Shown: positions 5,222 through 64,000 of the stretch, piece by piece | Position numbering within the stretch: position 1 is the first letter of the stretch | Layout: every line of letters begins with the position of its first letter | NCBI GenBank assembly: GCA_036345935.2 | Contig: JADWOT020000004.1 | Coordinates: 14,213,467 to 14,277,466 of the forward strand | Direction: 5' to 3' | Source: Taenia hydatigena | Taxonomy: Eukaryota; Platyhelminthes; Cestoda; Cyclophyllidea; Taeniidae | Length of the DNA: 64,000 bases | Program-made: the position numbers and the translations under genes | Notes under the pieces: model-generated | Databases searched by the model: none | Told to the model about the DNA's origin: nothing | The model's input: the letters and a program-made list of their open reading frames with translations, nothing else

Positions 5222-5559
5222 TGTCCTCAAAGCCACTCACCTCGTCCACACGTAGAGTTGCCAGTATTGGTGCTGTGCCATTGAGGCGTGCAGGTTCTCG
5301 AGGCACCACCTCTGTCACATCAACGCGCACTGCCCTGTCCACGCAATGTGGTCCGCCCTGTCCGCCTTTTAGCAAGACATTGGCATAATGAGATGAAGTG
5401 AACAACAAGAAAAGACACAAATCCACATTGGGTTGTGTGTGCGTGTGTTTGTGTCCCTTTCCATTCGACGAGCAACAGGGCGACTCACTGGGCTAATATG
5501 GCCAACATTTTACAACAAACACAGAGAAGCACTCGTGGATTTACAGCATGAGTGAGTTG

Positions 5560-27838: not shown

Positions 27839-30800
27839 ATGACACTCAGCGTTCAGTCAGCTGTGTACCAACAATCTGGTGCCCACGCGTCTTTTGATGG
27901 TAGTCAACTTGAGCAGGACAGGCTGAATCCCCACCATCAGGAGTATCGCAACAGTGCCACTGTACAATCCTACTCAGCGCCAACTCAACACATTCCCTCT
28001 GTCAATATCAACGCGGCCATAGCCTCCTCTTTGAAATTAAAAAATTCTAGTTCCCCGTCTCAGCAAATGGATTCTTCATTGGGTCTTTTGAATAAAATCA
28101 TATCCTTCCACAAATCGCCGGCGACACCTTTGGATACTCTTATCATGGCGCATATTGAACATATGCCAAATTCGACTGTCCTGTTGAATACTCGTGGTGA
28201 GAAAAGCATGTGTAAGTTTGCCTATTTCTTGAGCGTCACTCGGACGCTTTCATTCATTATTATGGCAATTTATTGTGAGAACATACCATTTGAACTGTTC
28301 TACCATGATTTTGCATAGGTTGTCCCAAGGCTCCGTTCCTCTTTTCCGATACGGAACTTATTAAGTGTTGTAAGGGTGCTCAGTCAGCTCTCCCGCGCGT
28401 TAATTTGGGCCTTCGAAACGCTGGAAACACTTGTTATCTCAACTCAGTTCTTCAATGTCTCCTGGCAACTGGTGCACTGCTATACTTCGTTAGGGAGAAA
28501 CACTGCAAACCTGGTGTCTGCATCTACGCAAACAACAAAAACGGCAGACGGTTTTGTGCACTCTGTGCCCTTTTCCGGCTCTTTCAGGAGCATGGACAGC
28601 AAAATAACCACTCTCTGTTGCCTCAGTCAGGTGGTGACTTTTTCAATCGAACTAGCTTCGGATCCACCACTCCTGCCCTTTTCGCCACGAATGTCCGGGG
28701 TAGGTTTACCGTTATTTCTATTCATTTAAGTCTGCTTCTATGGTGCATATTCACTTGTGTTAACCTCCTTCACAGCTGTTTGTCCGAACCTGCGAGTCTA
28801 CGCTCAGGAGGATGCTCATGAATATTTGTTGGGGTTGCTCTCACGAATGGAGGAAAGTGTGGTCTCTGGTGTCGGAAAGGTGCCACGCTCTACGCTTGAT
28901 ACAAATGTAATTCGTCGGATTTTCGGTGGTGTCACGCGTTCCGAGGGTAGGCTAACGCTACTATCGATGCCGCAATCTTTATTACTAGCCCTTTGGAATT
29001 AATCTAATGCTCCCTAGCTTATTCTTTTATTTCAGTGACCTGTAATACCTGTCACAAAGTATCTCTTCGGAATGATCAGTGGTTTAATTTGTCGATGGAC
29101 ATTACGTATGCTCGCAGTCTGCAGGTATGAAGTTGCAAAAGTCTCATTCTCAGTAGTGTCGGTTGAATAAGAATCTTATATTCCATATTTTAGCAATGCC
29201 TAGTTAATTACACCCAAACTGAGATACTTCAAGGCGCCAACGCTTACAAATGCGAGACTTGCCAGCAGCTGCGGCATGCGAAGCGTTGCTGTCGTGTCTT
29301 TCGTGCACCTCCCATTCTTATAGTTCAATTTAACAGGTTAGTGTTGTCGTTTCACTTTTCGTGCACATTAGGGCTTCAGGAGTGAGATGGGCGCAGTTTA
29401 TTTAGCTCGGGCTCTGCCCTACTCACGGCTGATTCAAAAGCATAGTGTACACGTTTATTTTTTTCGTCAGAAAAGGTGCTACTGCTTGACACAGAAACTT
29501 CCTTTTGTTAGATATTTTTTTTAAAAACAACATTCACAATCGAAGGATGTATGTTATCGAGCGTTTTAACATATAGATTGGCGGTCGAGGTGTGCGTCCA
29601 CAAAGGGCAATGCTACGTCCGGTGTTGTGGACTTTTTAAATGGCGCCTTTTGCTTTTGTTTTTTTTTTAGGTTTTCGCGTAGCCAAAAGCTCGACTTTCA
29701 TGTAGATTTCCCCGCCTCCTTCAATATGCGTCCCCACATGACTCCCTCGAGTGGCCCATCGGTGGTTTACCATCTCTACGCTACCCTTAACCACGAGGGC
29801 ATAACGTGTCGCTCTGGTCACTATGTAGCATTTAGCAAACGCAGGAACCAGTGGTTCTTTCACAACGACAACGTGGTGAGCTTTTTGGGAATTTCAGTTC
29901 ATGAACCATGTAACAAACTGTTCTGCTATTGGGGGTGGTTGATATGGGACTAAGTTCAAAAGTGACGACATTGGTTTTGCAAGTAATGATGGGTATTGTT
30001 TTTAATAACTGTCTTCCATTTTGATAATGTTAAACTAGCCTAACATTGTCAGTGCTTATTTTCTTTTGCACATGTAACATTCTTCTCAATGGTCACCGTC
30101 GCAGTCTGTTCTATGTTCTTGGGTGGGTACACACGTTTTGCACCAGGGGGGGCGGAAATCTGCAAGTGGAAGTATGAACAGCAAAATGCGCGCTGTAAAA
30201 TTGTTGTATTCCCCTTTAGGTGACCTCAACGACCCAGGAGTACGTGCTCCGGCAGTCACCTTACTTGCTTTTCTATCAGCTGGTACGTTTTGTTATGGCT
30301 TTTGACACTGGTGTACCTATTCAACCGCTATCTTCCTTGCTCACTCCGTGCTGTATCTCGATGGTTCAAAAGCTGTCTTTTCTGTATGCAAGTAAGGAGT
30401 GGGGGTTAGCCTGTGATTTTTGGTAAATTGGTACGCTTATGGAGGTGCGGTTATTTGCCGCGCAGTGGGATTTCCTATAAGTGCAAAACCCACCTCCAAA
30501 ATGAAGGTTAGGCAGAATCTCAGGGTCAGCTGCGTTAGTTACTGCTGGTTGACTTCGTTCCATCTGTCACAGGTTTCAATTATTTGTGCAATAATCTACT
30601 TTGTGTATTATTCATACTATTTCATAGTTCACAATAGTCAAGCCATATCAGGCTCCCCTCTATCGTGCTCCTTTGCTTTACGCGTGGTATGGTAACACTT
30701 TTCTTACGGTTTAGGCCTCTCCTGAGGCGGTTTTAGGCCTGGCTTCCGTTGGCAGCAATGTTGTTCAGCTCCAGCCGGATACTAAGCCCTTAGGTTCGGT

Positions 30801-35440: not shown

Positions 35441-38300
35441 ATAGTGACTAATGTACCGGTATGGAAATGAAAAAAAGCATTATTTACCTATTTCTCTGCA
35501 CTGTGGCTATTTTTATTTTAATATTTACCTATTGAACAGATGCTTGTCAATTTACCTCTTTAATAAGTAAAACTCATGGGTTTTTTTGACAGAATACGAA
35601 AGCTCTTTTTATTAGTAGCACTTCAGCCCAAAGTTAGTTTCAGAATTTTGGCGTTCTTTTTATCGGCTGGTGTTGACCTTAGCGGCGGCTAAAATTGTAA
35701 TGCCACAAGTCCACCTTTGAAGTCTTCATGGGTTAAAATATCGTAAAAGAATACACAGACAAACTGGAGCGGATATGCATCCGAAGAATACTAAAGTGCC
35801 TGTGCCGATTTGGTTTCACTCTAGGAATTTAAAAGCATTGGGTTTTTTTCTCTAAAAAAGTCGTTGGATGCCTCTGCGGATGAATACAATCTACTCATCT
35901 CGATTCATTTTCCTTCCAAATGACTATTCTTCAACTCATTGGAACTGGAACAATTGCTACAGAGTTTTTATTGTTAAAACACGCCAACAACAGAGTGAAC
36001 ATCGGGTGACCTAGCTGACGAAGGTGGATCGACGTGTGATGACAGCATATCGGGATCTGGTCTTCAACAATGTCACGAAGACTTAAGAGTGCGCTCAGCA
36101 AAAATGCATCTCTTTTCATTGAACTGTTGGAATCGTGTGGATGTAGAAAGAATTGTAGCATCGCACTAATAAGTCTCAACGACACGGTTCTAGAATGGTC
36201 ATACTATCAAATGTTAGGAAATTGTGTTCATGCAATTTCAAGGGCGTGTTGATAATAACGTAACCTTGGAATTTTAAAAAAAGAATAAGCACGTTTGCTC
36301 TACCACAGCTCAGCTTTCATTGTCTGCCATTCAGCGTTGAACCATATCACAAGAGTAAGTGAGTCAAAATATGCCAAAAATTTCGGGTTAATTGAAGGCA
36401 GACAGGCGTAAAAGGCGTTTTTGGTGACGTGAACAGGAGCTTCACCTTCAATGAATGACATTCTCTCAGGTTCAACTACACAATTAAATAACTTTGCTAC
36501 ATAGTTAAGAAGTTAACCAAACACGTCTCATGATACGTATCAAAATTTAACACTTAAACCAGTTAATCTGACTTAGTGATGATGGTCCGACCACTTGTCG
36601 ACCATTGCACCGCTCCTCTGTCGAATCAGAAAGAGTCGTGTTAAGTCTAAGCAACTGTTTATTCACAGCCACTGTCATCACAGCAATTTGCATCACTCCC
36701 CTATGCTTTCTCGGTTCCACTAATTTTGTTTTACATCCAACAATTGAGCTTCTGTAAACTCCTTCTGAGATCAAACTCAAAAGGCAGTGAGAAGCCGAAG
36801 TCGATGAGAGAGATGAAGGAAAAAGAGGTGCGTCACTGACCACCATCATCATCGTGGTTGCGGATTCGTGATGCGCGGCGGACGACAGCAACACGCTGGA
36901 CACAAATTGGGCTGACGAGGAGATGAGCCAACTCTCGTGCATTTTTCACACTTGCAATATAACTATATTGCCTTTCTTGCATCACATGCTACTGTTTCGC
37001 ATTGCCAAGGATCGAAATGCTGGCAATGTGGGACACGAATGACCCACGACTTACAGATTGCTTTGTTTGTGACAACGTTAAGTGCATTGTTTGTCGTAAG
37101 ACACAATGTAATTTGGCAGATGGCTCCTATTGTCTATTACTAAAAAATTTGCAGAGTGACCAGCCCGTCTCTTATGGCTCAAAGAGACGACAGGATTAAG
37201 GATGCAATGCAGAACAAGAACTGGTAAAAAACAGTTGCCTTCTGTACTAATTGTTCCAATTTTATTGAGTTGAATGATGTTTATTTGGAAGAAAAGTGAA
37301 TCCAGGTTTCTAGACAAAGCTCAATGTTTTTAAGATCCTTAGAGTCCATACATTGAAACAAAACCGCTGTGGGCACTTTAGTCCCCTCGGGATGCACAGT
37401 CTGCTCTGCCGCATGGTCCTCGGTTTGTCTGCAGGTTTGTAATGTATGCGCGTTCACGGTGGTTTGGACTTGCTACAACTTCAAATGAAGACTTGATGTG
37501 CTACAGATTTAGTCTCCTCTAGGGTCAACACTTGCCAGCAATAAGAATGATGATAAAAATGCCAACATTTTGAAAAAAATGAAAAGAACTTGAACCTCGA
37601 TTATGAAAGCTTAAATGAGGTGAAGCTAGAATTGAGTAGTTATTTTTAGGGAATGCTTAAAATGTGGGCAGAAATAGGATGAACGAAAGGTTTATTCCAC
37701 TTGCTGTACTGAAGAGTACTAAGGGATAGATGAGACTGGCTACTAAGTTAACGCAATAAAAATTAAGAAGAGGAGCTTTGTGAGCCTAACCAGGTTTAAA
37801 AATTGATGCTAGCTCTAAAATTTTGAGATGGTTGTCAATTTTAAATACATTTTAAAGGTTTATAAAATGAAGATGCGACCGCAATTCAAGGACTTGAAGA
37901 CATTCGTTTACATCACTTGAAAAAAAAACGCCGAAGAGGTTACTTGCATAGAAAAAGTGCAAAAAGAAAAAAAGGTAGTATAAATTGTCCGGGCGCACAA
38001 GTTTCTGATTGAATAAATTACCACAAATAAGCTTTACTCGTCCTAGTAAAGTAAAAAGTGGATCGCACCAAAGAGGCCTAGGGAAGGCGATGCTAAGCGT
38101 CAGAAGCTACATCCAAATATCCAGCATACAATGCAATACAAAAAGCTTGATTCGTTTTAAACAAGAAAGGGAGAATAAAGTTGGTCTGACTAGAAATACC
38201 CGTGTAGAATGTCTTAAAATAAATCTAAAATATTGACTTCGTCATCATCCTAATCATTCGCAGGGAACACATTCACGACCTTATCCGCCTGGAAGACGCT
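35441..38300. other. Intergenic sequence, no gene recognised
   Basis: The longest open frame (36547-36942, minus) and the Cys-containing frame at 37002-37199 (plus) lack family motifs or splice-site support. No repeat shared with the rest of the window was noticed here. Confidence 0.4.
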
Positions 38301-38804
38301 GTAGCGTCCTGGGACTTCCTTGAAAGCAAAAGGAGGAATAATACTAGGGCAGTATATATATTCAACAAACAGAGGAAACCAGACTGTTGAAATGACCCGG
38401 AGGTCAGCCCACACAGCTAGGGCAATATGACCAACCCACCAACCGAAACCGATACCGACATTCAAAGCAAACAAAGTATTACATAACTCCTCTCTTCTTT
38501 CAAGCGTCATCTCCAACGCTCCTCTTGGAAAAACCTCCCACTTCAGCCATCACAACGTACTCAGTGCTGCAAGAAGCACCCACAAGCTAACCGTGCCAGT
38601 CGCCGACATTCGACGCAACTCAGGCAATGCTTCACACCAACGTCAGTGTCAGTGTTGGGCAGTTCGACCGGACTTGGAGTTTTGTCCGGTTTTGAAAGTG
38701 AATCCAGAGTGGGGGTTCTGTTGAGCATCAGCGTATCTACAGGGAGACATTAGAACGCCTGTCTCCTTGAGCAGGCATATTAGGGAAATATCCGCAACGA
38801 AGCG
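38301..38804 (-). repeat. Left arm of a ~99% identical inverted repeat
   Basis: The reverse complement matches 42641-43141 almost base for base; I saw about one mismatch per 150 or more bases in the blocks compared. The outer half (38301-38480) is a family C unit. The inner half (38500-38804) is sequence I see nowhere else in the window. All other family C units differ from each other far more, so this pair is young. A frame of 80-90 codons is preserved in both arms, but it is repeat sequence without a recognisable domain. Confidence 0.9.
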
Positions 38805-39640
38805 TTTTTTAGATGTACACAAGGATGCGCACGCATATGCATACATACAGCCCCTGAATCACATGTGCATAAATGGACTCCTTATCGCCATTTCAAAATA
38901 AATACTTTTTCTCGCGCTTATGTGTGCATATTACAGAAGCTCAAGCTCAAAGTTCGTGCTTCCTTCTAAGCATATAGTCACAAATATGCTTTTAACGGAT
39001 TTCTTTTATCAAATATCCATTTTTACAAGGATGTAACCATAAATAAGCCTCCCGTTGGTTTTTTTACAAAAACGCTGTTCCACGAGCGTCTGTTTGCATA
39101 CATAGACGCATTTTAAATTACTATAAATAGATATGCGTCAGTAAGGGCAAATTTACCCAAATGGGTTATTCATAGACTTCTCAAAATTAATATCTATCAT
39201 TATGAAAATGTATTTAAACAATATGCCCTGCATATCCACAGGCCTTCATGCATGCGCTTGCTTCTCATCAATTCCACCTATGGATTATACTTCTTAATGT
39301 GTGTAAATGCTCAAAAAGTTTTCCATTGACTTCCATAAAATTAACCCATTCTGGGTGTTCATATCCATAAATATGCCCCTTATCAACTTCTCCTTCAGAA
39401 AACATACTTTTCTACGCACTTTGTGAATATATATTACTTATCAATGTGTCAAATCCTACAGCATCTCCACGGACCTAAATACATGCCTGCGCTTGTAATC
39501 ATCTTCTTGGCATTTTCATTCTCACACCGTAAATTAAAAATATGAACCCTATTCAGCTCTTTAAAATAATGGCAGATTTGATGAGCGGATTTGAAAAGTA
39601 TACTTCCCATGCGCGATTGCGATTTATGGTAATTCGTTAC
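38805..39640 (-). repeat. Degenerate ~60-bp satellite, minus orientation
   Basis: Repeated words include CATAAATATGC, TTCATGCATGCG, CTTCTC/ACTTCTC and CATCAATTCC. Their complements are those of the large array at 43.35-46.17 kb. Spacing of related words is around 55-65 bases. Monomers are strongly diverged. Confidence 0.6.
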
Positions 39641-42229: not shown

Positions 42230-42640
42230 TGCCGGCTCCGGTTTCGGTTTCGGTTTCGGTCACTTTGGTGGCCATATTGCTCTAGCCAAGTGGGCTGGTC
42301 CCTAAGCCATGCCAGCATTCTCATTACCCATGTTTATTAAATGTATGTATTCTGCCTTATTATTGTGCCTTCTTTTGTCTTCGAGGGAATCTCGGGACGC
42401 TGCATTGTTGGAAAGCCGAAAGCTGACCCTAACTTATTGGGTTTCTATCCCAATCCACACTGCTTGTGCAAACCAATGGTGCGGATGAAGTGCATTTGCT
42501 GCAGATAGGAAAATCTCGGACAGCTCATAACAGAAGGGCTGAAATTCGACATCTGCCTTCGCCATCTACCCCATCTCCGTGTTCTGCAGGAGAGCTATTA
42601 ACAACTGAAGCCACACTAGCCGTTAACCACCTGGAAACGT
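42230..42640 (+). repeat. Family C unit with internal extension
   Basis: It begins with three tandem GGTTTC hexamers (about 42240-42260). The family C order follows (GGCCATATTGC, AGTGGGCTGG, TGCCTTCTTTTG, GGGACGCTGCA). Then comes a 230-bp segment (42410-42640) that matches 26815-27050, including TTAACAACTGAAGC. It abuts the right arm of the inverted repeat. Confidence 0.7.
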
Positions 42641-43141
42641 TTCGTTGCGGATATTTCCTTAATATGCCTGCTCAAGGAGACAGGCGTTCTAATGTCTCCC
42701 TGTAGATACGCTGATGCTCAACAGAACCCCCACTCTGGATTCACTTTCAAAACCGGACAAAACTCCAAGTCCGGTCGAACTGCCCAACACTGACACTGAC
42801 GTTGGTGTGAAGCATTGCCTGAGTTGCGTCGAATGTCGGCGACTGGCACGGTTAGCTTGTGGGTGCTTCTCGCAGCACTGAGTACGTTGTGATGGCTGAA
42901 GTGGGAGGTTTTTCCAAGAGGAGCGTTGGAGATGACGCTTGAAAGAAGAGAGGAGTTATGTAATACTTTGTTTGCTTTGAATGTCGGTATCGGTTTCGGT
43001 TGGTGGGTTGGTCATATTGCCCTAGCTGTGTGGGCTGACCTCCGGGTCATTTCAACAGTCTGGTTTCCTCTGTTTGTTGAATATATATACTGCCCTAGTA
43101 TTATGCCTCCTTTTGCTTCCAAGGAAGTCCCAGGACGCTAC
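42641..43141 (+). repeat. Right arm of a ~99% identical inverted repeat
   Basis: This is the partner of 38301-38804 in opposite orientation, 3.8 kb apart. The shared block ends at GGACGCTACA. The second half, from about 42955, is a family C unit. See the left arm for the comparison. Confidence 0.9.
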
Positions 43142-43349
43142 AATGCTTGTTTGGATGTTTCGCTATTGCAAGTTATTGATAGATTACATATTTAGGCGCA
43201 TAGGCTCTTGAGGCCGAATATTCACTGAAAGGATTAGGTAGAAGATTTCTTTAACTGTACACGTTAGCGAAGGATAGTAATATTTTGCAGGAAGCGATTA
43301 GGGACTTATAATTGTTCATTCGTACGTGAGAAAATCACGCACGCATCCG

Positions 43350-51982: not shown

Positions 51983-54900
51983 CTAAGTTTGCAAAAATGC
52001 ATACGGTCTTCGGTGATGTGAAAACCAGGTACGAGAAATGTAAAATTAAAGCGTAAAAACTAGTAAGTAGAGACATGCAGGCATAAACAAACAAGAGAAA
52101 ATAGGTAGAGTCTACTAAGGCCTACCATTATAAAAAGATCTTAGCAGAGATTGACGGCGCGGCGGAAAAGCCGAGGCTTACAAATTTTACAAATCGGATT
52201 AGAGATTGGAATGACCTCGTCTTGATGTCAACACATTTGTCCGCTTTGTGTCGTTTAATACAAATGTGGCATAATCATATTGTTTAACAACAAAAAATAA
52301 AACAACTGCGATAGAGAACCCACGATTCTCAATAGGCGGATGCAACTTGCTACAGCAAGGGCATCGATAATACGGTGCCTTTTGCACTGACCGTAACCAC
52401 CTATATGATCTGACAAGGGCATTCATGTTGTGAGGTGTCGAAATCCAAGGCTGTCTGTCATTTAACGTGAAAATGGGCTTAATTTTTATGATTCTGTCAA
52501 AACAGCGGGGATTCGTCAGTGTGGAAGAAGCAGTGGCACTTGCACAGACTGTTTTTGAGGATGTCACGCACATTGTAGGTAGCCTTTTCCTGCTATGCAT
52601 TTGCGGCAAACATTTAATTCGTTTTAGTGCACACGGCATGCTTCCCACGTGGTGTGTGAGTTAGTACGAGACAGACGACGGAAAAATCATGCCCTTTTTA
52701 TTTGTCGGAAATATTTTCCAAGAATGTACTTCCTGAAATATGCATCATTTGAAAGCTACGTTTCTTCAAGCATCACGTGTATTTAACTGCGCATATATTG
52801 ACTTAATCGTATGGGTGACGTGAGTGGAGTATGTGCAAGGGGTACCGGTGACTCCGACTAACGTGGGAACCTAGGAGATTTTAAAAGAATTTCTACATGC
52901 TACAAAGAGGCATGCTTACTCAAGTGATGTGCAAGGCCAAAAAATTATGCTATGCACCAAAGCATTTTCTAAACCAGGCCTCATCGCAAAAGATTGCGAG
53001 TAGTTCTGTTTACGTTGGAAAATACACGATTGTGCTCTGTTTTACTGTTTAGCATCGAAGTTTGATCGAGAGTAGGTGTTCACCAGAGGTCTTACTTCCC
53101 ATTCGTACGTTTGCACTTGTGATGCGTTCCTCTCTCCAGTAAGAGCGATTTCAAATACATTGTTCCCTTTCTTTTGCTAATTCCTTAACAATTTCGTCGA
53201 CATTGTCTTTGTACCAGTAGCAGCCCTTGCAGTAAGATAGAACCAGCCACTGCCCACTGCTGCCGCCAATCCATTCCCCTTTTATCTTCCTTCTGACTTA
53301 AGGTGAAACGCTATCTCAAAAGAGAAGCAATTTTATCATCGAAAGTAGAGCTGCCAAAATTCATGTTGGTGATGGGCGCAATCAAAACTAATCGCTCTTC
53401 TCTGCTGTAATGAAGCTTTGCATTAACTTCTAACAACGGTGCTCGCCTTCCCCACAATGCCACAGCAGGGGCCGGTACTGAATGTCAACCTACTCACACC
53501 TCGTCCAGTACCTGGTTGTCTCCATGGTACATGTGCCACTGTCATAAGTGAGAGGAGGACAGAGTGGTGCACCACTCAATGTCACTTTACAATTTCGACT
53601 CAGGATTCTTACTGCACCCTTCACAATTACGACCTCAACAATGAAGACATGGACTAATTCTGCGCTGATCAAAGCACCATGGATTTGTTAAATAGGCTTA
53701 TTTTAATCAAGTTTAGGAGAAAAGGAGAACCATTCATTTTCCATGATGAGCACGCACACACATGCAGAGGATAAAAAAATTTATGGCTTACAATGCGCAT
53801 TTCTCTCCATAATTTGGGACTATGACAGTGCGTTCGCTGGTATAACATTTCCGCGCCAGTTGGAGGGAGAGAGAGGAGCTGGAATGCGAGGCAATACTCA
53901 CTAACTCTACTCATCCATCTTTGCACTCTTCCTATGGAATGAAATAGGGAAGAGCGTAGAACACACAGACATCCCTAAAAGTCTTGTCTATAAACCAATT
54001 ACATCGCATCGTCTTATTCTCTCCACTTCTCCCTTTTAACGGTTATTGCAATCACTGGATACTATGTTTGTCTTCGGGATGATAATAACAGCTTGTAGTA
54101 AGTGACATCGAAAACATGCTACCAATAACAAAACAAATGCATACGGGTCAAACCAGACGCCTTGCTGTAGATGCGTGTTGGCAGCTGTGGTGGTTCGCTT
54201 GTGCTTGCAAGGAGCGTTGAATGTTGGGAAAGATTTTTGTGAATAGAAGCATACAAAGCCCCAATCAGATGCAACCAGAGTAGGCTTCAGGCACAATAAG
54301 GCGGAATGAGATGAGGTCGATTTGGGGAACTTGGGGTCGAGGCAGAGTACGGCGGTATATTTGGCTGGATTCATTGTGTTAATGACGGCCGAACGTCAGT
54401 TAATGCCAATGAAATCTGTGGTGTCCTTATGCTCGCATCACACCTATAGTCACCTGCGATATTCGCCTTATAGCACCTACCTTCATGGAGCGCACGAGGG
54501 ATGAGCTCTCATAAAGGTGCACTAAAGGCAAGCGTTTCGACTCAGGCGATGGGTTTAGCCTTCGAAACAAACCTGCAGTTCCGTAAAGTAGTGCACTACG
54601 TATAATCATAGCACCTTCTCGCTTTCGACCACCAAACACCTACTGCAGTACCTACCTGACATCGTGTAAACATCGTCTGCTTTGGTCTCAACAAGTGTAA
54701 CGTAGAGAAGCGTCGCCTTTGCTTCCCTTGCCACTCTTTGACTTTTGCCTCTACAACGGTGCCTTCTCTCATCACACCACGAGGTATCCACTGCTAACCG
54801 AATGAAGAAGAGAAGCAACGGGCGAAGGAAATATGCCGAACGAAGTAAAACAGGTAGACAGTATAGTGAAGCCTATGTTCTGTAGCTATAGCAGCTAAAA

Positions 54901-55290
54901 TATCAGCAACGAAATGTACGGCATGCGTCAACATCAAGCAAAAAATTGTGCTGTTAACTCAAGCTGCCATAGGCAGATGTCTGATGTCATGGATTGACTT
55001 GTACATGAATGACCACTGATTCGCAAAGTCTCGTAGTGACCTTCATTTCTTGTGAGCATTGATGTCTAAGAGGATGTGTCTCATGTGTGCTGTTCGTGAA
55101 TGCCGCATTCCCTTGGGGCCTTAAACTGCACCACAATCATTCTACCTTTCTTTTCACACTCCTCTGTAGTCTGAGAATTTATGGGTCAGTCACAAACGTG
55201 CTGTGCAAAGGTAGTAGTCTCGATCTCTTTACTCCCGCCTGACACCTGAAGATGATGAGCGACTTACTCCTGTGAAATTATTTGTTGTCT
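51983..55290. other. Intergenic sequence, no gene recognised
   Basis: The largest frame (52199-52648, minus, 149 residues) and 54036-54374 (minus) have no family signature. 53439-53657 (plus) is Cys-containing but unplaceable. No repeat from the families above was noted. Confidence 0.35.
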
Positions 55291-55294
55291 ACAG

Positions 55295-55520
55295 TGTCTT
55301 CATGCCATGCGTATTGTGTACATGGATCTCAAACCAGAGAAAGTCCTCCTCTCAGACTCGGGCCATGTCCTCACCACTAAATTTGATCGGTCACATGATG
55401 TCAGAGAAAAAAGCTTCCAGAACCGCACTATTTTTGCACAACACTCCCATTCATGGTACCTGAGATGGCAGCAGAGGAAGCGATGTAATGCGGTGAGCCA
55501 GATCAGGTCGCTATAGCATG
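55295..55520 (+). pseudogene. Degenerate protein kinase domain fragment (AGC-like)
   Basis: A good acceptor (GTTGTCTACAG, ending 55294) precedes a frame that reproduces kinase subdomains VIb-VII: Ile-Val-Tyr-x-Asp-Leu-Lys-Pro-Glu, then Ser-Gly-His-Val-Leu. After a frame change it shows the Pro-Glu-Met-Ala-Ala-Glu-Glu-Ala region of subdomain VIII (about 55455-55485). The style (Tyr-x-Asp, Gly-His-Val) is that of AGC kinases. Key positions are changed: the Arg before the catalytic Asp is Met, the metal-binding Asn after Lys-Pro-Glu is Lys, and the Asp-Phe-Gly motif reads Lys-Phe-Asp. Stops and a frameshift follow. A functional kinase is very unlikely. It is an eroded exon or pseudogene fragment, and the rest of the kinase was not found. 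Confidence 0.55.
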
Positions 55521-55929
55521 AGGTAAAAAAGCACACAAAGCCACTATACAATTATAGTAAGCGTCCAGACACCGCAGAAGTCAAGGATCAGCACTTTTAT
55601 AGCAGTGTCGTTTAGGACGAGGTAGCTTCTGGCACATTGCAACCACCATACCTTCCCTCCCAACTAACATCTAATGCCATTATAAATGAATTCGTGGGTG
55701 ATCAACGTGATTCCTTGCTTCTCAAGGCCGCGTACTGCAAGAAAACGCAGCTAGTGGATCGCAGTCTCCATTGCACACTTATTAAAGACAGTGCCATCTG
55801 ACTAGAGGAGCCAGCAAAGTCGGTTTGACGTCTGACAAGATAGAGGAGCCTATGACAAACTTCATTTTCACTAGTCCTCTTCTTCGAACCCATGACAACG
55901 GCATTCACGTAATTGAGTTGCTTACCTAC

Positions 55930-56036
55930 CTTGAGAAGAGTTAGTAGAACTTTGCTCACATCACATTCATTAAATGATCGGAAAGCATCCTCCCACAGGC
56001 AATTCCCAATTTTGAACACGGTGACCTTTCTCAATA
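55930..56036 (-). CDS. Possible exon with calponin-homology-like end
   Basis: A 107-nt minus-strand open segment lies between a modest acceptor (AACATTAG, AG at 56038-56037) and a strong donor (CTCAAG|GTAGGT, intron starting 55929). It encodes 35 residues. The last 22 (Trp-Glu-Asp-Ala-Phe, Phe-Asn-Glu-Cys-Asp-Val-Ser-Lys-Val-Leu-Leu-Thr-Leu-Leu) follow the pattern of the final helices of a calponin-homology domain: Leu-Phe-x-x-x-Asp-Leu, n-hydrophobic-x-x-Val-Leu-x-x-Leu. Such domains bind actin or signalling partners. The match is short. Neighbouring exons were not identified, so this is a suggestion only. Confidence 0.3.
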
Positions 56037-56279
56037 CTAATGTTTTTTGTGTTTGTGGGTGGGTTCATTAACTGATCACTTTGCACGGACGCCTTTCCCT
56101 TACCAATGTATTTTGCATTCTCCAGCACGTCTTTCGTGCGACTTCCAGTCTACGGATGAGTCTAATGAGTCATTTCACCAACGTTTGGCGGCAACAAAAG
56201 CGCATAACTGTGCCCTTAACTTTATCTGGGTGTCAACGTGTAGGATTTAAGTGTAATTACAGAATGTAGGCATGCCAAA

Positions 56280-56460
56280 ATGCATTCTACGAATGCCGCT
56301 GTGGGTCTTTGAGAGTCCCCTGAAGCTAAAAGCTGATATGATACGTGAACAGAATAAAGGGGTTCGGAGTGGGAAAGGTCTGAAGCTACTAGCGTGGCTC
56401 AAAGGCCAGCCCACACAGCGAAGGTGCAATAACCATCCAAGTAACTGCAGACGAGACTGA
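56280..56460 (-). repeat. Family C dispersed repeat unit (diverged)
   Basis: The unit is in minus orientation. AGCGTGGCTCAAAGGCCAGC and CCACACAGCGAAGG correspond to the AGGCCAGCCCACGCAGCTAGG part of other units. The flanking region is more diverged than in the 38-43 kb copies. Confidence 0.55.
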
Positions 56461-59309
56461 GAGCTGTATAGACAAAAATCGTGCAACTTTTTGGACTGAA
56501 TATCGTTATTACTATAATAAATCGCTGCAACATGCTGTTTAATTTAAATACAAACAACTAGCCGAGTCCGTCATTCTTTATGGGCAAAACCTCTAACTCC
56601 ATGCTACAGTATTCCAGATCCTCTGCACGATGTTCATAAAGGGCTACATTTGCAGGGATTTTTAGAATTCTCCTCCACACCCATGAGAGCCCATGCCTAA
56701 TACGAGAAGGCGGGCTCCCCTGCACCGCTTCCATTTCACTCCGTCCCTCCCAACCATTCAATCGTCACACACGCCACCTTGTCTTCTACTTCTTTTCTCA
56801 AAGACCAGCCAATTACCAAGAAAAGTTCTCGTCCAATGAGGAAGAGGGAAGGGGAACGCGCTCACAGCCTAGTAGGTTCTACCTAATCACACCCTTGCCC
56901 ACGCAACTTTACCACTTGCACTTTGTTTTCGTATCCGTCCCTTTGTGCATTTCTTACACATATTTTTAATAATAATAATTGCATAGCGATAGTAGACTTT
57001 GCACATCACTAAGGTCAACCTTACTTCCACCACTTTCTTCCATTTCCCTCCTCCTCCTCGTTCCCTTTTTTGCGGTCTCCTTCATCTGTCTTTAAAGTAC
57101 AAAAATATGCGAATTCAGCAAATGAGAAGTTATTGAGAAGTCGAAAGAACGACTTGGTTTCATGCCCTCTTTTGCCTTCAAGGAAGTCTCACGACGCTAG
57201 AGTAGACTACCATATATTAGTCCATCTTTGCGGAGCAAGGTACATCGAAACCGGTTATGGAATGCTTGATTGAATGAACGATAATAAAATTTTTTCCAAA
57301 GCCGTCGGAGAGGCCACGGGAATCATTCAGTATTAGTGGAAACGCGCTCACGCCCAAAGCGTAGTTACTTGGGCCTCCTCTGGCACAAAGCCACACAGTC
57401 AGCACCAAATCATCGTTGCGTCGTGCCACAGGCGTGCCTTCACCATCATCACAGATGCTCAATTCGGATGCACCAAAGGAGAATACAGGCACGTTCTGGC
57501 GGCATCGATCCAACAGTAACCTAATCCGGCTCTAGCTCTCACTCTCGGCTTGATTTTATCATGTGCAAATCCCACGTCATCCTTGTCGTGATGTGTGATT
57601 TACGCGCCTCTAAAGCCCACGCAGATGTTCCTGTTTCGACATAGTGTCACGCCTAATGCAAAAGCAGGCGTGTGAGGACAAAATAAAATGTTAACTCGGT
57701 TATTCTATTGAATTAGTGACAACAGAAATGAAGAGGATTGCAAAATGTAGGATTTAGCAGTCAATCCCTACTGTGACCTCGTTTATGTCCAATGGTGCAG
57801 ATGTTGAAGCGTGTTCCAAGAAGCTCGTGCTCCAAACACCACCATTACTTTGCAACTGCGGATGCATCAAGTCATCCACATTACGAGTCACTTCGCTGTG
57901 CTATTAACTTGTTTTATTGCTTTATACTATGTTAGTGTATCAAGTATGGCAACAGTAAGTTGCAGAAGTGAAATGTCTCAACAAAGAGTTTTATTCGAGG
58001 AGTAAACGTGATGTCTAATGCACGAGCTCTTTCAAATATGCTTTACAGTCTGAAGCATTGGGCATTCGAGGGATCAAAGTGAAGATGATGACTACAGGTG
58101 AGCAAACACCATAAGCTTTTGCACTAAATGGTCACTAAATTTTTTTCTAGGCTTCACAGCTTGTTTACTTTTAAGCCTCATATGTACGCGATTGCATGCT
58201 TATTGCGCAAGCGATTGTGATACAGCATGTAGTTGGTGTAGGGAGCGAACCGATGCGAACACTGCGCTAGTGTTTTGCCACCACACAATATTTGATGCAA
58301 AGTACTTCCAATTAGCTTCACCTTCATGTAGTCAGAAGGCAGTTGAAAAATTGTATTGAAATGGAGCCATGATAGCGCTTTGGCTTGCAGAATTGACATA
58401 TTACTCACTTTGTCGTAATTGGTGGATACATTTTACGTTGAATCGGCTCCTTGATGCAACAAAGTTGTTGCCCATACACATCCAAGGATTATTTGTTAAA
58501 GCAATGTATCAGTCACTCGAATAGCACATGGTCGGCGAATATAAGCAGTGGCGTACTCAGGAATACTTCGGTTCCGGATCACTTAGCTGCTTGTTATTAG
58601 CAAAGAAGGCGGTGACGTTGATACCACCACTGCCGCTGCTGCTGCTGCTGCAAGTTTGCACTGCGAATGGAGAATCATAATTTTACGTGTTCGATCATTG
58701 CATTTTGGTAGGTAAAGAAAGAGGAAGTGGATGAACGTCATAGGTAGGCGACGTTTAAGTTTGGCAATTTTTTATTAGGAAGGGCGGAGTTTATTTTGAA
58801 CTCGCCATTGCCACCACGCAATCCGTCAATGCCAGCATCTCACTTATTTCTCCTGTATTTCTTCATTTATTTCCCTCATTACATTTCATTCATCCGATTT
58901 CCGTGTCAGATAAAACAGACTACTTTCGTAATATTTTAAGCAGAAGATAGTTTACAGCACAAAATCATCGATCCTCTACCTGAATTGGCGTTGTGAATTT
59001 GCGGATTTCTTGGTGTGTCGGACTTGGTAAACCCATGCATAAGCAATTCAGGCTAAAAGTTGATCATTTCAACGTACCACTCACCCACTCTCATACGCCA
59101 TCACATCAACTAGTAGGTCTGGCAATGCAAGCGTCTCTCTTTGCTACTCTTCCCGCAGCCTTCACCTACCTCTCTCCAAAATGCTCCTGAAGCCATTCGA
59201 TATTAGAAGGAGGAGCAAAGTGACTCCTATGAGCGTTTCATGTGCAAGCCTGCTTGCGACAAAGCTCCGAACACTGCACACCTTAGTATTTCGTCAGATC
59301 TTAATGTAG
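56461..59309. other. Intergenic sequence with a family C remnant
   Basis: About 57095-57200 contains a partial plus-strand family C end (CCTCTTTTGCCTTCAAGGAAGTCTC followed by ACGACGCTAGA, split by changes). Frames at 57217-57513 (minus) and 58178-58408 (minus) have mixed composition but no recognised motif. A GCT run lies at about 58634-58650. Confidence 0.4.
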
Positions 59310-59947
59310 GGGCGCGATGTCGGAGGAGGAAATCGCGCTACGGATGGAAGCATCCAATATTCTCGATTCGGTTACCTTTCAGTGATCAAGTACCGATCGC
59401 ACGCGTGCATTGTCGGTATGCATGACTGCACCTTTTCTGTTCATTCGGCTGAAAGAGGTAAGAGATTGCTTTTTGAAAAACAATGTTTGCAGGAGAACGA
59501 GACGGGCATGACTGCTGTGACTGCACAATTTATTTGGTGGATGCTTTGTGCCTCCTGCGGGATGATTTTACATCCACCTTAGAACCTCTTGCACCCGATC
59601 AAACATTGTCGTCGAGTGCGGTGATTGTAAATGCGGAGAGAGATGGGTCGAGTGAGATGGACAGGATGGCGCGATTCATTCAGAGCCTTGGTGTCTTCGA
59701 CGGCACTCCGCCGCCTACTGTGCGGATGATTTGGCGACTGTGGTGCATTAAGCGCCATGGAGGGAGCCTTACAAACTGGTCAAACTTGTTGGAATGGTGC
59801 TTTTACGACGTGATTTGCAAAAGAATGAGAGTGGTCAGATGCACGACTGTGTGGCAGGCGAGAGACAAATCATGTGATTGTATTCTTTGTGTATTCAACA
59901 TGGATGATGCCCGTTTGTTTTTATTTCTTATTTTATTGGTTAACTGA
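59310..59947 (+). CDS. Candidate two-exon gene with a 35-nt intron, unrecognised product
   Basis: Two open segments join in frame across a 35-nt gap with good splice sites: donor GAAAGAG|GTAAGAG at 59458 and acceptor TGTTTGCAG ending 59492. Very short introns occur in flatworms. The first segment is open from 59310 with an internal Met at 59418, and the second runs to the stop at 59947. Together they give roughly 200 residues. The sequence is Cys-rich around the junction (Cys-Cys-Asp-Cys), then has Leu-Val-Asp-Ala-Leu-Cys-Leu-Leu-Arg-Asp-Asp and a hydrophobic C-terminus. A competing short frame starts with a Met-Ser-Glu-Glu-Glu run at 59317 and would need a one-base shift to join. No family is recognised. 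It may be a gene or an eroded copy of one. Confidence 0.35.
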
Positions 59948-61907
59948 GCTACGAATGGTGTAAGGCATGCAATCACTTGTTTGGAATGCTTTGTAGTCGT
60001 GGAGTTGCTACACTGTTTTTGCTGAGTGGTTAGATAAGTAAAGGCAGACTTTCGTAGTACTACGCTAAATGCTATGGGAACAGAGAATGCATCTGGTCGG
60101 CAAATGAATGAATGGATAAATGAGTTAATCTGGAACAACCTGAAATGAGACATTTGGAAAAGCCTTTTTGGAAGCCTTTATTTTTGTCACTTGCGAGATG
60201 GAGAGTATCGAAAAAGAATGAGGCTTAGGAAGATGACAGCTACAAACAAGTCATTATTCCATCGAAAGTGAAAATATTGTGCAGTTTAGACAGGAATTTT
60301 TGCCTGATTGCATACTAGCCTTGTCGTCGATTTGCGTTAGTACCTTCGGTAAGTTGTGGGCACAGGGAGGACCTCAGCACCATTTGCCACGTGTTCTTCT
60401 TACAAGGTTGATCTAAAAAACCGTATTTTAAAGTGGGATCATAAAAAGTCACATGGAACGGAGCATCACAGGGGGAATTTCGATTCCTTTTTGCCAATTA
60501 TTTTAACCACCATCAGGCCTTATTTCCCTAGCATCGTGGGAGAATATGCCACTGTCCAAAGTGGGGTTCATCCATCTGGAAGTCACCGTTGTTTGGCATG
60601 CTAAATAATGCGAGGAAAGAAGTTGGGTGGAGGCAGTCCGGTGAACCTAGCGTCGGATACTTCGTGCTAACATCTGTCAACATTGTTGGAGATGGTGGTC
60701 GTACAAGGTCTAATTAGTACCACCTTTACTGTTTCTATTTTCATTTTCCTAAATGAAACAATGCGGACATCTACACTGCATCAGATTGAATTATACAGTC
60801 GACTTTTACTTTGGCGATAAAGCCCGCATCTACCCTTCATAAGTATTCAATCGATAGACACCGAGGGGAAAGAAGCAGTTCTCACGTCTACTTTACTCCA
60901 ACTTTCTTCCTGATGTGAGAAATAGCACTTTTGCCTATGCTGACATCACTTGTCGAATCGTGGAGTCGGTTCTCTATCCCATGTGACACAATGTGATTTT
61001 TCATGCCCTACATGAATGTGTCAAACTAATACAAAGTAAATTGATTGTAATACGCTATCTATCAGGACAGTGGATTTGTGTGGATGTGCATGTACTGGCC
61101 AGAGTTTAACAAGGCTCAATCTTACTGCTTGAACAAAATAATAGCAAAATAATAGGTGACTCTTGGCGCCGGCTTCGAAGCGCGTTTTTATTGTGAGATT
61201 TGGATCAGATAGTTATCTAAGCGTGCATTACAAAATCAGCCATACAATTGCAAAACTTGTACAACACTCCGTAAGCTGCCGAGCCAAGTCCAACACGCAG
61301 CATTTGGGTTAGAATCCGTCGAAGGCGTTGCAATGCTTTAGCAGTTGGATTGAATCTGCTTTCGCTTAGTCACCACAGCTCAGCCTCTAGGTCGCGCGAG
61401 CAGCCTCTCAGTCCGCCTAAACGCTGGTGACGCATTCTCTGCACTGCAACCGTGTGACCTCTCTGCGACCACGGGAATACCTCGTGGCGCTAGTTGCAAG
61501 CAAACCCTTCCCCTAAATAAAGCTACTCGGATTTCCGTTGTCGCACGAGTGAAGGTTGGCAGGACTTGCTAAATAATTTTTAACTCCAAGGGTTGGGTAA
61601 TACAATTCCCTCACTGTGAAGTATTATGTGACAGAAGGTGTCACATAAATGACCTTCACTTGTCGGGTGGGTGGGAAGTATACGTGTCCTACTGCTATGA
61701 AAGAACGACTGAGATCGCGTGAAAGGCTTTGGTTATTTCTAAAGCTGACTTAAAAGCTGCAATGTTTTGTGCACCTCGGTTCAATGGAGCAAATCCTCTT
61801 CACTACCATGAGTAAACCGACTGCGCATATGGTTGTGCCGGGACGCTGCCATGATTAATGGCGGTGTATGGCTCGTCACTGCCATATATGGCCACCCGGT
61901 GCATACG
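59948..61907. other. Intergenic sequence, no gene recognised
   Basis: Open frames at 59803-60153 (minus), 60315-60497 (minus) and 60356-60604 (plus) lack motifs. 61340-61560 has an AATAAA-containing, GC-richer segment that could be an LTR end, but no second LTR was found. Confidence 0.35.
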
Positions 61908-61939
61908 CATTCAAGATCGGCACGCGATTGGTTAAGCAC
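61908..61939. repeat. Left copy of 32-bp direct repeat flanking the viral fossil
   Basis: Matches 63147-63178 with three mismatches in 32 positions. The shared core is TCGGCACGCGAT. The two copies are 1,239 bp apart in the same orientation and bracket the Rep-like fossil. Confidence 0.85.
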
Positions 61940-62167
61940 TGCTTGGAAGGTGTTTCTGCTATGGTGATTTTTTCCGCCCTACAATGGCTTGCCCGGAGGA
62001 TTCGTTGCATGCACAACACACCTGCTGCTTAATCGCCTTCCCTGATAACACTAGCGGACATTACTCTTGGCTTTCATCGCATCATGTATTGATTAAAATT
62101 AAGGAACAAATACTGTCACCATCATTATAGACACATTTTATTATAGATGTATGACTTTGGTACATTG
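61940..62167. other. Sequence between the left direct repeat and the Rep-like fossil
   Basis: No capsid-like or other frame is recognisable. It becomes AT-rich near 62085-62160. It might be former viral sequence or host sequence. Confidence 0.35.
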
Positions 62168-62999
62168 TCATTTGATGGCCTCGGGGTTAAAATGGGTACA
62201 CTTGTATAAGTCTTCTATCGGCAAATTGAAGGTGATTCATACCTTCTTGGAGTTGAATAGTTCACAGCCTCCTTTAATAGGTACTCGGTAGTGGTATCTG
62301 TCGCAAACTTTTAGCAATTCGTCGTATTTAATCCATCCGTAGAAATCGTCATTAATAACGTTGGGTTGCTGGTGGTATCCATCCCACCGTTCTCCGTGGC
62401 GTTTATAGTAGATGTCTTCGCTAGCTACCAAAGCCTCCTCTCTGGCTTTTTTGGATTTACCGACACCGGGTCCACCGTAAATGTAGTGGACTTCTGTCTT
62501 AAAGTCCCTATCTTTTGAGGGGTTAATTAAATTTATAAGTTTTCCAATCCCTCTGTGATATCGAATGTATTGCGATGGAAATAGATTGGCGATTCGGAAT
62601 ATGGAACACCCCTCTTTAATCTTTCGGAACAATTCATCCAGGTCATTTCTACGCCCTTGTGATTAAGGTGTGCCGTGTTCGGTATGGTTGTCTGATACTG
62701 AACAGTAAATCCTATTATTTAAGTCACTACTGTGGGCTCCTTTGATGTGCGCGGTGTTTTCCATAATGAGCTTTATTGTGCTAAAACGCAAATGAGTTTT
62801 AAATGCCTAAAAAGAATTATTTCCAAACATTTTACATGAATCCTTGTAGATGATGCCTTCCGGTAGTTGCACAGACTTCTTTTCCATCGATGAAGTACTT
62901 GCATTCCTCGAATCCTATTTTGCAAACGGACTTATAGTCAGCGTCACTGTAATCATGTAGAGTAAAACAAAATCTCCTTAGATTGCTATTGGTATTCAT
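62168..62999 (-). pseudogene. rep: Endogenous circovirus/cyclovirus-like Rep, broken
   Basis: Rep of circular single-stranded DNA viruses nicks and unwinds the viral genome. Reading down the minus strand from an ATG at 62999, the expected parts appear in order. HUH motif 1 (Phe-Thr-Leu) is at about 62968-62958. Motif 2 (His-Leu-Gln-Gly-Phe) is at 62852-62838. Motif 3 (Tyr-Cys-Ser) is at 62707-62699, where the usual following Lys is Val. Walker A (Gly-Gly-Pro-Gly-Val-Gly-Lys-Ser) is at 62476-62453 and Walker B (Val-Ile-Asn-Asp-Asp-Phe) at 62359-62342. Motif C is at 62236-62225 with its Ser changed to Phe. Breaks: a 29-nt GT..AG gap at 62835-62807, TAA at 62665-62663 and TGA at 62239-62237. Apart from the gap, all parts stay in one frame to a stop at 62170-62168, close to the family's usual length. 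The helicase half retains an uninterrupted frame. No capsid gene was seen. It is an ancient integration, very unlikely to give functional Rep. Confidence 0.9.
62807..62835 (-). other. 29-nt GT..AG intron-like gap inside the Rep fossil
   Basis: On the minus strand the gap starts GTAAAATG and ends TTCTTTTTAG. It lies directly after the HUH motif 2 codons and contains stops in frame. Its length is not a multiple of three, yet the Rep-like frames on either side match up exactly if it is left out. Introns in Rep genes are known for some cycloviruses. A host-derived or chance origin is also possible. Confidence 0.6.
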
Positions 63000-63146
63000 G
63001 CCCAAATTCGGATTAGTACCATTTCTTGTGCACTAGTTGGGGTTACCTATACTAGCGTTTTTCCATCACACTCGCCCCTGATGACAAAGCTCCTGAAGTC
63101 ATATAGTCACCTCTGGTCCAAATGCGCATTACAAACCAGTTGTGCA
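63000..63146. other. Sequence upstream of the Rep fossil, possible remnant of a viral intergenic region
   Basis: In circular Rep viruses the origin hairpin lies upstream of rep. Here CACTAGT and ACTAG words at about 63029-63055 flank an imperfect TAGTATA-type sequence on the minus strand. This is at best a degraded relative of the nonanucleotide TAGTATTAC. Nothing else is recognisable. Confidence 0.25.
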
Positions 63147-63178
63147 CATTCAAGGTCGGCACGCGATCGATTAAGCAC
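63147..63178. repeat. Right copy of 32-bp direct repeat flanking the viral fossil
   Basis: Partner of 61908-61939 in the same orientation with three differences. It lies about 150 bp beyond the start codon of the Rep fossil. Confidence 0.85.
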
Positions 63179-64000
63179 AAACAATAAGTAGCCAATGAGT
63201 AAACACGCCAACGTAAGTGGATGGGTGGGTGGGTGGGGGATAAGAGAAAAAACAGAACAAAGAAAGGAATAGGGAGAAGTGAAAGACAGTGTGTCACATA
63301 TGTGTGACGGTGGCGGGTGGGTGAGATGAAATGAGAGAATAGCGAAATGAAAGTTGGTGAAGTGGAAGGTTGTAAAGTATGTATTATTTGGTGAATTGAT
63401 GTGGGGATAAGGTAAGGAAAGCTTTAAAGAGGGTGAGGCGAGAGGAGAGGAGAAGAGGGATACTCCTCATGCATTAATTCTAACAGTGTTAAAAGGAGAA
63501 AAAAGAAAGAAGATGCCTATAATGCGTGAGGAAATGTGTAAAAACGAAGGAAGGGAAAAAGAGGAAGGAAAAAGAGTGAATGATGGAATGTAGGGAAGGA
63601 AGGATGGAGGGAGGGTATGAGGTCTACTTGCGGCATCATATAAGTAGTAGTACTAGTGGTGTAGGTACATGAATGTCAATAAGAAAGAAAGAATGAAAGT
63701 AGGAATGAACGACAAGGGCGAAAGTAAAGCAAAGGCTTATCAATCACGAGGTGTTTGAAGGAAAAGAAAAGGGGAAGGTGGGCCCTCTAATACTACTACT
63801 GCCACTGGCATATGGGTAGCTGTGGAGGCGATGGTGGAAAAGTGGTAAGAGTGTATGGAAAGAATGAATGAATGAGGGTAGGTCAATTGAGGCATGTGAT
63901 GAAAGACAAAAAGCGAGAGAGAGAATGAAACATGATTAAAAGAGGTAGGAGAGAGTGACATCTACTAGTAGCCTATTAAGTAGTTGTGATGGTGGTGGTG
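63179..64000. repeat. Polypurine-rich, simple-repeat-rich end of window
   Basis: The plus strand is dominated by A and G (GAAAG, GGAAGG, GAATGAATGA runs), with GTGGG runs at about 63220-63240 and a GGT run at the window edge. No gene is recognised. Parts of its reverse complement resemble 13.6-14.0 kb, so it is probably a second copy of that dispersed sequence in the opposite orientation. Confidence 0.5.

Follow-up and report, generated by a model that had tools for sequence, protein, structure and literature searches.

A decayed cyclovirus Rep gene, very probably endogenous, in a chromosomal contig of the tapeworm Taenia hydatigena

The stretch analyzed here (the window; 64,000 nucleotides of Taenia hydatigena contig JADWOT020000004.1, called C4 below) contains what is left of a circular ssDNA virus Rep gene, which occupies 62999 to 62144 on the minus strand. 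Translation yields four coding pieces, separated by in-frame stops and by one change of frame, and a direct repeat lies on either side of them. In window coordinates, the features are as follows.

62837..62999, minus strand: N-terminal HUH Rep fragment with motifs I and II and a Met at 62999 (PF02407 and PDB chain matches)
62807..62835, minus strand: 29-nt GT-AG stretch at the site of the frame change, a probable intron place whose GT is common to 32 of 38 other HUH copies
62663..62806, minus strand: Rep fragment with HUH motif III YCSV, closed by the in-frame TAA 62665-62663 (PF02407)
62237..62662, minus strand: SF3 helicase Rep fragment, 141 aa open, with Walker A and B, closed by TGA 62239-62237 (Pfam, PDB, fold and tree)
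62144..62236, minus strand: C-terminal Rep remnant with ITFN, the third in-frame stop and the end of homology (read from the sequence)
61908..61939, plus strand: left copy of a 32-nt direct repeat, candidate target-site duplication (29/32 identical)
63147..63178, plus strand: right copy of the 32-nt direct repeat (29/32 identical)

The HUH open piece (63032-62832, minus strand) contains motif I as FCFTLHDY and motif II as HHLQGF. The helicase piece (62662-62237, minus strand) displays Walker A as GGPGVGKS, then WDGY and a Walker B region VINDDFYGW, and the piece after the stop at 62239-62237 opens with ITFN, an altered relative of the motif C form ITSN. The motif names (HUH I to III, Walker A and B, motif C) are labels that we assume for the letters read here. 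HUH motifs I to III are followed by SF3 helicase motifs, the arrangement expected of a Rep in Circoviridae and Cyclovirus, the HUH pieces being weak in Pfam. The original prediction had described motifs I to III, Walker A, Walker B and a motif C relative in this order on a single strand, with WDGY before Walker B and DFYGW at it as the helicase wording; as all Rep pieces are ordered on one strand in the translations, that observation holds. The extent proposed for the gene (62168..62999) is correct at the Met start, 62999, but not at the lower end, where homology continues to about 62144 and 62168 marks only the third stop.

The helicase piece matches the PDB chain 7lar, annotated as "ATP-dependent helicase Rep," with an E value of 1.7e-28, a chain that we take to be the Rep of porcine circovirus 2, and matches the Pfam family RNA_helicase (PF00910) at 1.3e-9, above the family cut-off. 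Matches of the HUH pieces to Viral_Rep (PF02407) fall below the curated cut-off (E values of 5.8e-4 for the motif I/II piece and 0.024 for the motif III piece), and the motif I/II piece retrieves six Rep or replicase chains from the PDB at E values of 0.0038 to 0.7, plus one unrelated chain at 0.87. Given the 7lar and Pfam matches, we regard the Rep likeness as not due to chance. At an E value of 0.01, none of 72,556 plasmid records matched the Rep piece, and only 2 of 50,697 phage records did so, weakly (28 to 29% identity); a plasmid or phage Rep was rejected on these counts, and with it the possibility, which the original prediction had named as fatal to itself, that plasmid Reps would be the best matches. 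IMG/VR scans with the helicase piece and with alignment A1 gave no confirmed relative, and Rfam returned nothing at the gathering threshold over the window.

Protein comparison with viral Reps brings cyclovirus Reps to the top. In a BFVD fold search with a predicted structure of the helicase piece of moderate quality (mean pLDDT of 76, pTM of 0.56), the first three ranks among the best 50 of 464 matches were feline cyclovirus (58% identity), Indian encephalitis associated cyclovirus (57%) and Cyclovirus roach (54%); the best named circovirus in these 50, pigeon circovirus, was at rank 5 (43%). Phylogenetic analysis likewise places the window piece within the cycloviruses. In a 75-row tree, it falls into a 31-row set (support of 96/80) that also holds T. 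hydatigena copies from the rep-cap arrays described below, Taenia solium and Hymenolepis microstoma proteins, Rodent associated cyclovirus 1 and Werosea cyclovirus. In the first tree, of 85 rows and under another model, it groups with other cycloviruses outside the 31-row tapeworm set, with supports of 22 and 45. The 85 rows comprised genome-copy matches of at least 105 residues and proteins P0002-P0060 and P0125-P0127, restricted to rows with at least 95 filled columns; the 75-row version omits array rows L021_6750, L022_1374 and L025_8768 and seven distant proteins. P0001, a near-duplicate of the window piece, was left out of both trees, and the remaining listed proteins were also unused. 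With groups named after the tree had been seen, AU tests rejected the union of the window piece with circoviruses (P = 0.0042), its union with 16 array rows (P = 0.0074) and a single clade of all T. hydatigena copies (P = 4.7e-7); its union with the Calfel-virus group was not rejected (P = 0.16). A circovirus in the strict sense was rejected on the AU test. Membership of the window Rep in the genus Cyclovirus is well supported by these comparisons; its exact place in the tree is unsure, given an alignment of 141 columns and a long branch (0.65) for the window row. The Circoviridae Rep identity originally proposed is thereby borne out and sharpened to genus level.

The window copy does not encode a full Rep, being interrupted by three nonsense changes (TAA 62665-62663, TGA 62239-62237 and TGA 62170-62168); the natural gene end is likely to be TAA 62143-62141. 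The reading frame also changes between motifs II and III, at the 29-nt GT-AG stretch. This site is reached by 39 HUH matches, the window copy and 38 more, once those that end short of residue 64 are set aside; in 33 of them a GT immediately follows HLQG[FY]M or a close variant of it, and the remaining 6, which end in HLQGF[IV], lack it. An in-phase GT-AG candidate of 71 to 73 nt begins at this common donor in 16 of the 22 GT-bearing copies that have a downstream helicase-side match; the other six, the window included, have no in-phase candidate of that length, and other GT-AG pairings occur in every copy. Rep introns of 31 and 71 nt are described in two cycloviruses found in a Taenia (PMC12197738). 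An intron at the post-motif II site is therefore likely in this endogenous Rep family, and because the break in the window copy lies at a GT common to 32 of 38 other copies, its 29-nt stretch is probably what remains of one. The phase of that stretch does not suit the motif III frame, and an alternative 55-nt pairing suits the phase but would remove residues that align with other Reps. Hence, either the window copy has an additional frame disturbance at the motif II-III break, or the intron reading is wrong there; decay alone as the cause of the break is disfavored by the common GT.

The fossil Rep lies at 14.276 Mb within the 21.3-Mb contig C4, with host flanks on both sides, deep inside the contig and not at its edge, the position that the original prediction had counted as grounds for suspecting contamination. 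None of eight Cap ORF queries matched near the window Rep (one matched at 5429-5500, with an E value of 0.27), and the origin nonanucleotide NANTATTAC is absent upstream of Rep, on either strand of 61501-63600; a relaxed origin pattern matches at 61619 (plus) and 62053 (minus), neither of them upstream of Rep. As it has no opposite-strand Cap, we class the piece as a fragment and not as a virus genome. P0001, a protein from another assembled data set, stops at the same point as the window piece, the second stop, and differs from it at 2 of 131 positions, one of which is the first residue; the window sequence therefore recurs elsewhere. These observations bear on the view that a contaminating or currently infecting virus was misassembled into the chromosome, or that the Rep is of plasmid or bacterial origin. 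Cycloviruses have indeed been reported from Taenia specimens (PMC10269781, PMC12197738), but the gene is broken, it has neither an adjoining Cap nor a strict origin motif, it sits in a long contig, no plasmid matches it, and the same broken end is found in P0001 from other data, so that we give this view hardly any credence. A published read depth check dealt with T. hydatigena virus-like sequences in general and not with the window copy specifically (PMC8384839). As far as these tests go, the original reading, a circovirid Rep fossilized in the germline of a flatworm, is supported.

The 32-nt direct repeat that brackets the Rep is one of two pairs in the 64-kb window that pass a filter for nonsimple 32-nt repeats with at least 29 matches at a distance of 200 to 3000 bp; the other pair is a local repeat 260 bp apart. 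No such repeat was found at the other genome loci examined. Judged within the window, it may represent a target-site duplication, that is, the footprint of the integration. Three stops over 825 coding bases suggest a neutral divergence of about 0.067 changes per site (95% 0.014-0.197), and three differences over 32 bases between the repeat copies suggest about 0.05 per copy. The two values agree, both being crude estimates on the substitution scale, with no years given; the minimum age for contact between virus and host lineage that the original prediction drew from the locus does not follow from figures of this kind.

Some other features of the surrounding DNA deserve mention. The fossil Rep sits in the spacer of an inverted repeat with 5.3-kb arms that are 99.3% identical and about 7.2 kb apart (window 54499-59805, C4:14267965-14273271, versus C4:14280511-14285816), which is either a real palindrome or an assembly effect. 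A second inverted repeat (window 38300-38807 and 42635-43142), with 508-nt arms that are 99% complementary and 3.8 kb apart, has the look of a DNA transposon or a recent inverted duplication. An ORF at 28309-28821 (plus strand) contains NAGNTCYLNSVLQCL, presumably the active-site box of a ubiquitin-specific protease, and is probably an exon of a host gene.

Searched against the 306-Mb host assembly, the helicase piece retrieves at least 67 Rep-like matches on 12 contigs, 16 of them on the long contigs C1, C2, C4 and C7, with a further 51 distributed over eight contigs of 46 to 116 kb. In the arrays, the Rep ORFs measure up to 299 aa from stop to stop and run convergently to ORFs matching Circo_capsid (E values of 4.6e-18, 4.9e-17 and 8.7e-16 for the three tested), so that the opposite-strand Cap characteristic of Cyclovirus is present in the array copies but not at the window Rep. 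GAGTATTAC or TAGTATTAC occurs in eight of nine array or chromosome loci tested, the exception being L024, and the two pairs of origin motifs on C1 are 1838 and 1836 bases apart. A PDB search with one Cap ORF gave no match. The array unit also carries densovirus-like NS1 ORFs matching Parvo_NS1 (E values of 2e-16 and 2.3e-12) and DUF5744, the DUF5744 ORF having no meaningful match in the PDB (E value of 0.36). In L022 (C1143; 4151-4912, 5049-6059 and 6299-6892), as in L023 and L029-L031, the Parvo_NS1-like and DUF5744 ORFs lie beside the cyclovirus Rep and Cap, so that a single amplified repeat unites sequences of two virus families. On C7, L034 and L036 (10.11 Mb and 3.21 Mb) are Rep fragments with a common 3.2-kb stretch (84%), as though a dispersed host repeat had carried them along. 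L034 itself groups with P0027 and P0031, yet another virus lineage. Three other places on C7 have match scores identical to each other.

The arrays raise the question of whether the window copy is merely their decayed local descendant, with no integration of its own. The two have the same genus-level kinship and the same GT place after motif II, and the 67 or more matches show that amplification happens in this genome. Against such descent, the stop-free matches of at least 130 residues share only 53 to 57% identity with the window piece, with values of up to 66% among the shorter matches, a DNA search that skips very common words matched nothing outside the Rep helicase stretch (query 327-618), and the AU test speaks against joining the window with the arrays (P = 0.0074). 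We accordingly judge descent from the arrays to be improbable.

A further explanation is that the Rep is a functional gene adopted by the host and kept under selection. According to PMC8384839, 39.72% of the virus-like sequence members are transcribed. In the arrays analyzed here, some pairs within the genome have low pN/pS ratios (0.15 for the L022-L031 Cap, with 2 N and 4 S; 0.00 and 0.09 for NS1b), and the Cap genes of the C1 pair do not differ at any of 687 bases. Comparisons between array lineages give a pN/pS of 0.09 to 0.21, as expected of virus genes before integration. Within-genome duplicates show few differences and mixed ratios (0.00 to 1.65), and the best filled of them, the C1 Rep pair, has 19.5 N versus 4.5 S, a pN/pS of 1.20 and one stop, the numbers being small and gene conversion being able to equalize pairs. 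We see in these values no convincing selection after integration, small numbers and possible blurring by gene conversion included. For the window copy, a host-adopted gene was rejected on its three in-frame stops, and overall we deem adoption most unlikely.

A Rep homologous to those of cycloviruses, broken by stops, placed inside a long contig and bracketed by a repeat is, in our view, very probably an endogenous viral element: a decayed, Rep-only cyclovirus integration in the taeniid germline, from a lineage other than that of the rep-cap arrays. On this reading, germline cells of a taeniid tapeworm, or their precursors, would have been infected by a cyclovirus, leaving in chromosomal DNA a fragment of the viral genome that carries Rep only and measures at most about 1.2 kb, the interval enclosed by the 32-nt repeats. 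Insertion at a staggered double-strand break is probable and would account for the 32-nt duplication, and the piece would later have decayed, presumably neutrally, by three nonsense changes. The source virus lineage would differ from the one behind the amplified arrays, the tree test pointing to a separate integration.

Integrations of this type are already published for T. hydatigena: its genome paper reports feline-cyclovirus-like rep and cap in opposite orientation and penstyldensovirus-like sequences as integrated (PMC8384839), and the window copy is probably a further, separate one. Both published PCR primers for the virus-like sequences match the arrays at 24 of 24 bases (8 of 38 and 7 of 38 loci, some overlapping). 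The sequences of PMC8384839 come from the same species as the window copy and their primers match the arrays exactly, but the worked example there is a rep plus cap unit on scaffold 2, whereas the window copy has Rep only and probably stems from a different lineage. The window copy may be new or unlisted, or may stand among the 38 T. hydatigena sequences of that paper. Endogenous circovirid Rep-like sequences have also been described in Taenia solium (PMC6069186), in Hymenolepis microstoma (PMC6186406) and, as cited in PMC12197738, in Spirometra. The T. solium and H. microstoma elements are likewise circovirid Reps in tapeworm genomes, and proteins under those names (P0014 and P0016) fall in the same 31-row set, but they occupy other loci in other species. 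The Calfel and Tenaz cycloviruses from a bobcat Taenia have Rep introns (31/71 nt) reminiscent of the 71- to 73-nt candidates of the T. hydatigena copies and the 29-nt GT-AG stretch of the window; unlike the window copy, a decayed chromosomal fragment with its 29-nt stretch out of phase, they were reported as circular genomes with Cap and origin (PMC12197738). Our literature search retrieved no paper linking T. hydatigena to the wording "endogenous viral" plus "integration."

Every T. hydatigena sample in a set taken from 15 dogs has been reported to contain a new cyclovirus, on the basis of partial Reps only (longest contig of 515 bp), with a mutual identity of 64.3 to 96.2% and feline cyclovirus as the nearest relative (PMC10269781). 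Under the terms searched, that report nowhere refers to the genome paper on T. hydatigena. As the spread of 64.3 to 96.2% is what an endogenous family would give, we suggest, at about even chances, that the reported virus is largely DNA or RNA of the present endogenous family, founded by several separate integrations of different cyclovirus lineages. If this is true, reads or transcripts from worms could not by themselves show infection, and tapeworm genomes would be a datable record linking the fecal "feline" and "rodent" cycloviruses to tapeworm hosts. More generally, cyclovirus sequences in viromes of worms or carnivore feces can be host-genome sequence. The window copy probably adds a virus lineage that is unrepresented in the rep-cap arrays of this genome; as a fossil Rep, it retains a probable intron place, and it may carry a clean integration footprint. 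Taken with the sister copies, it speaks for repeated contact between cycloviruses and tapeworms.
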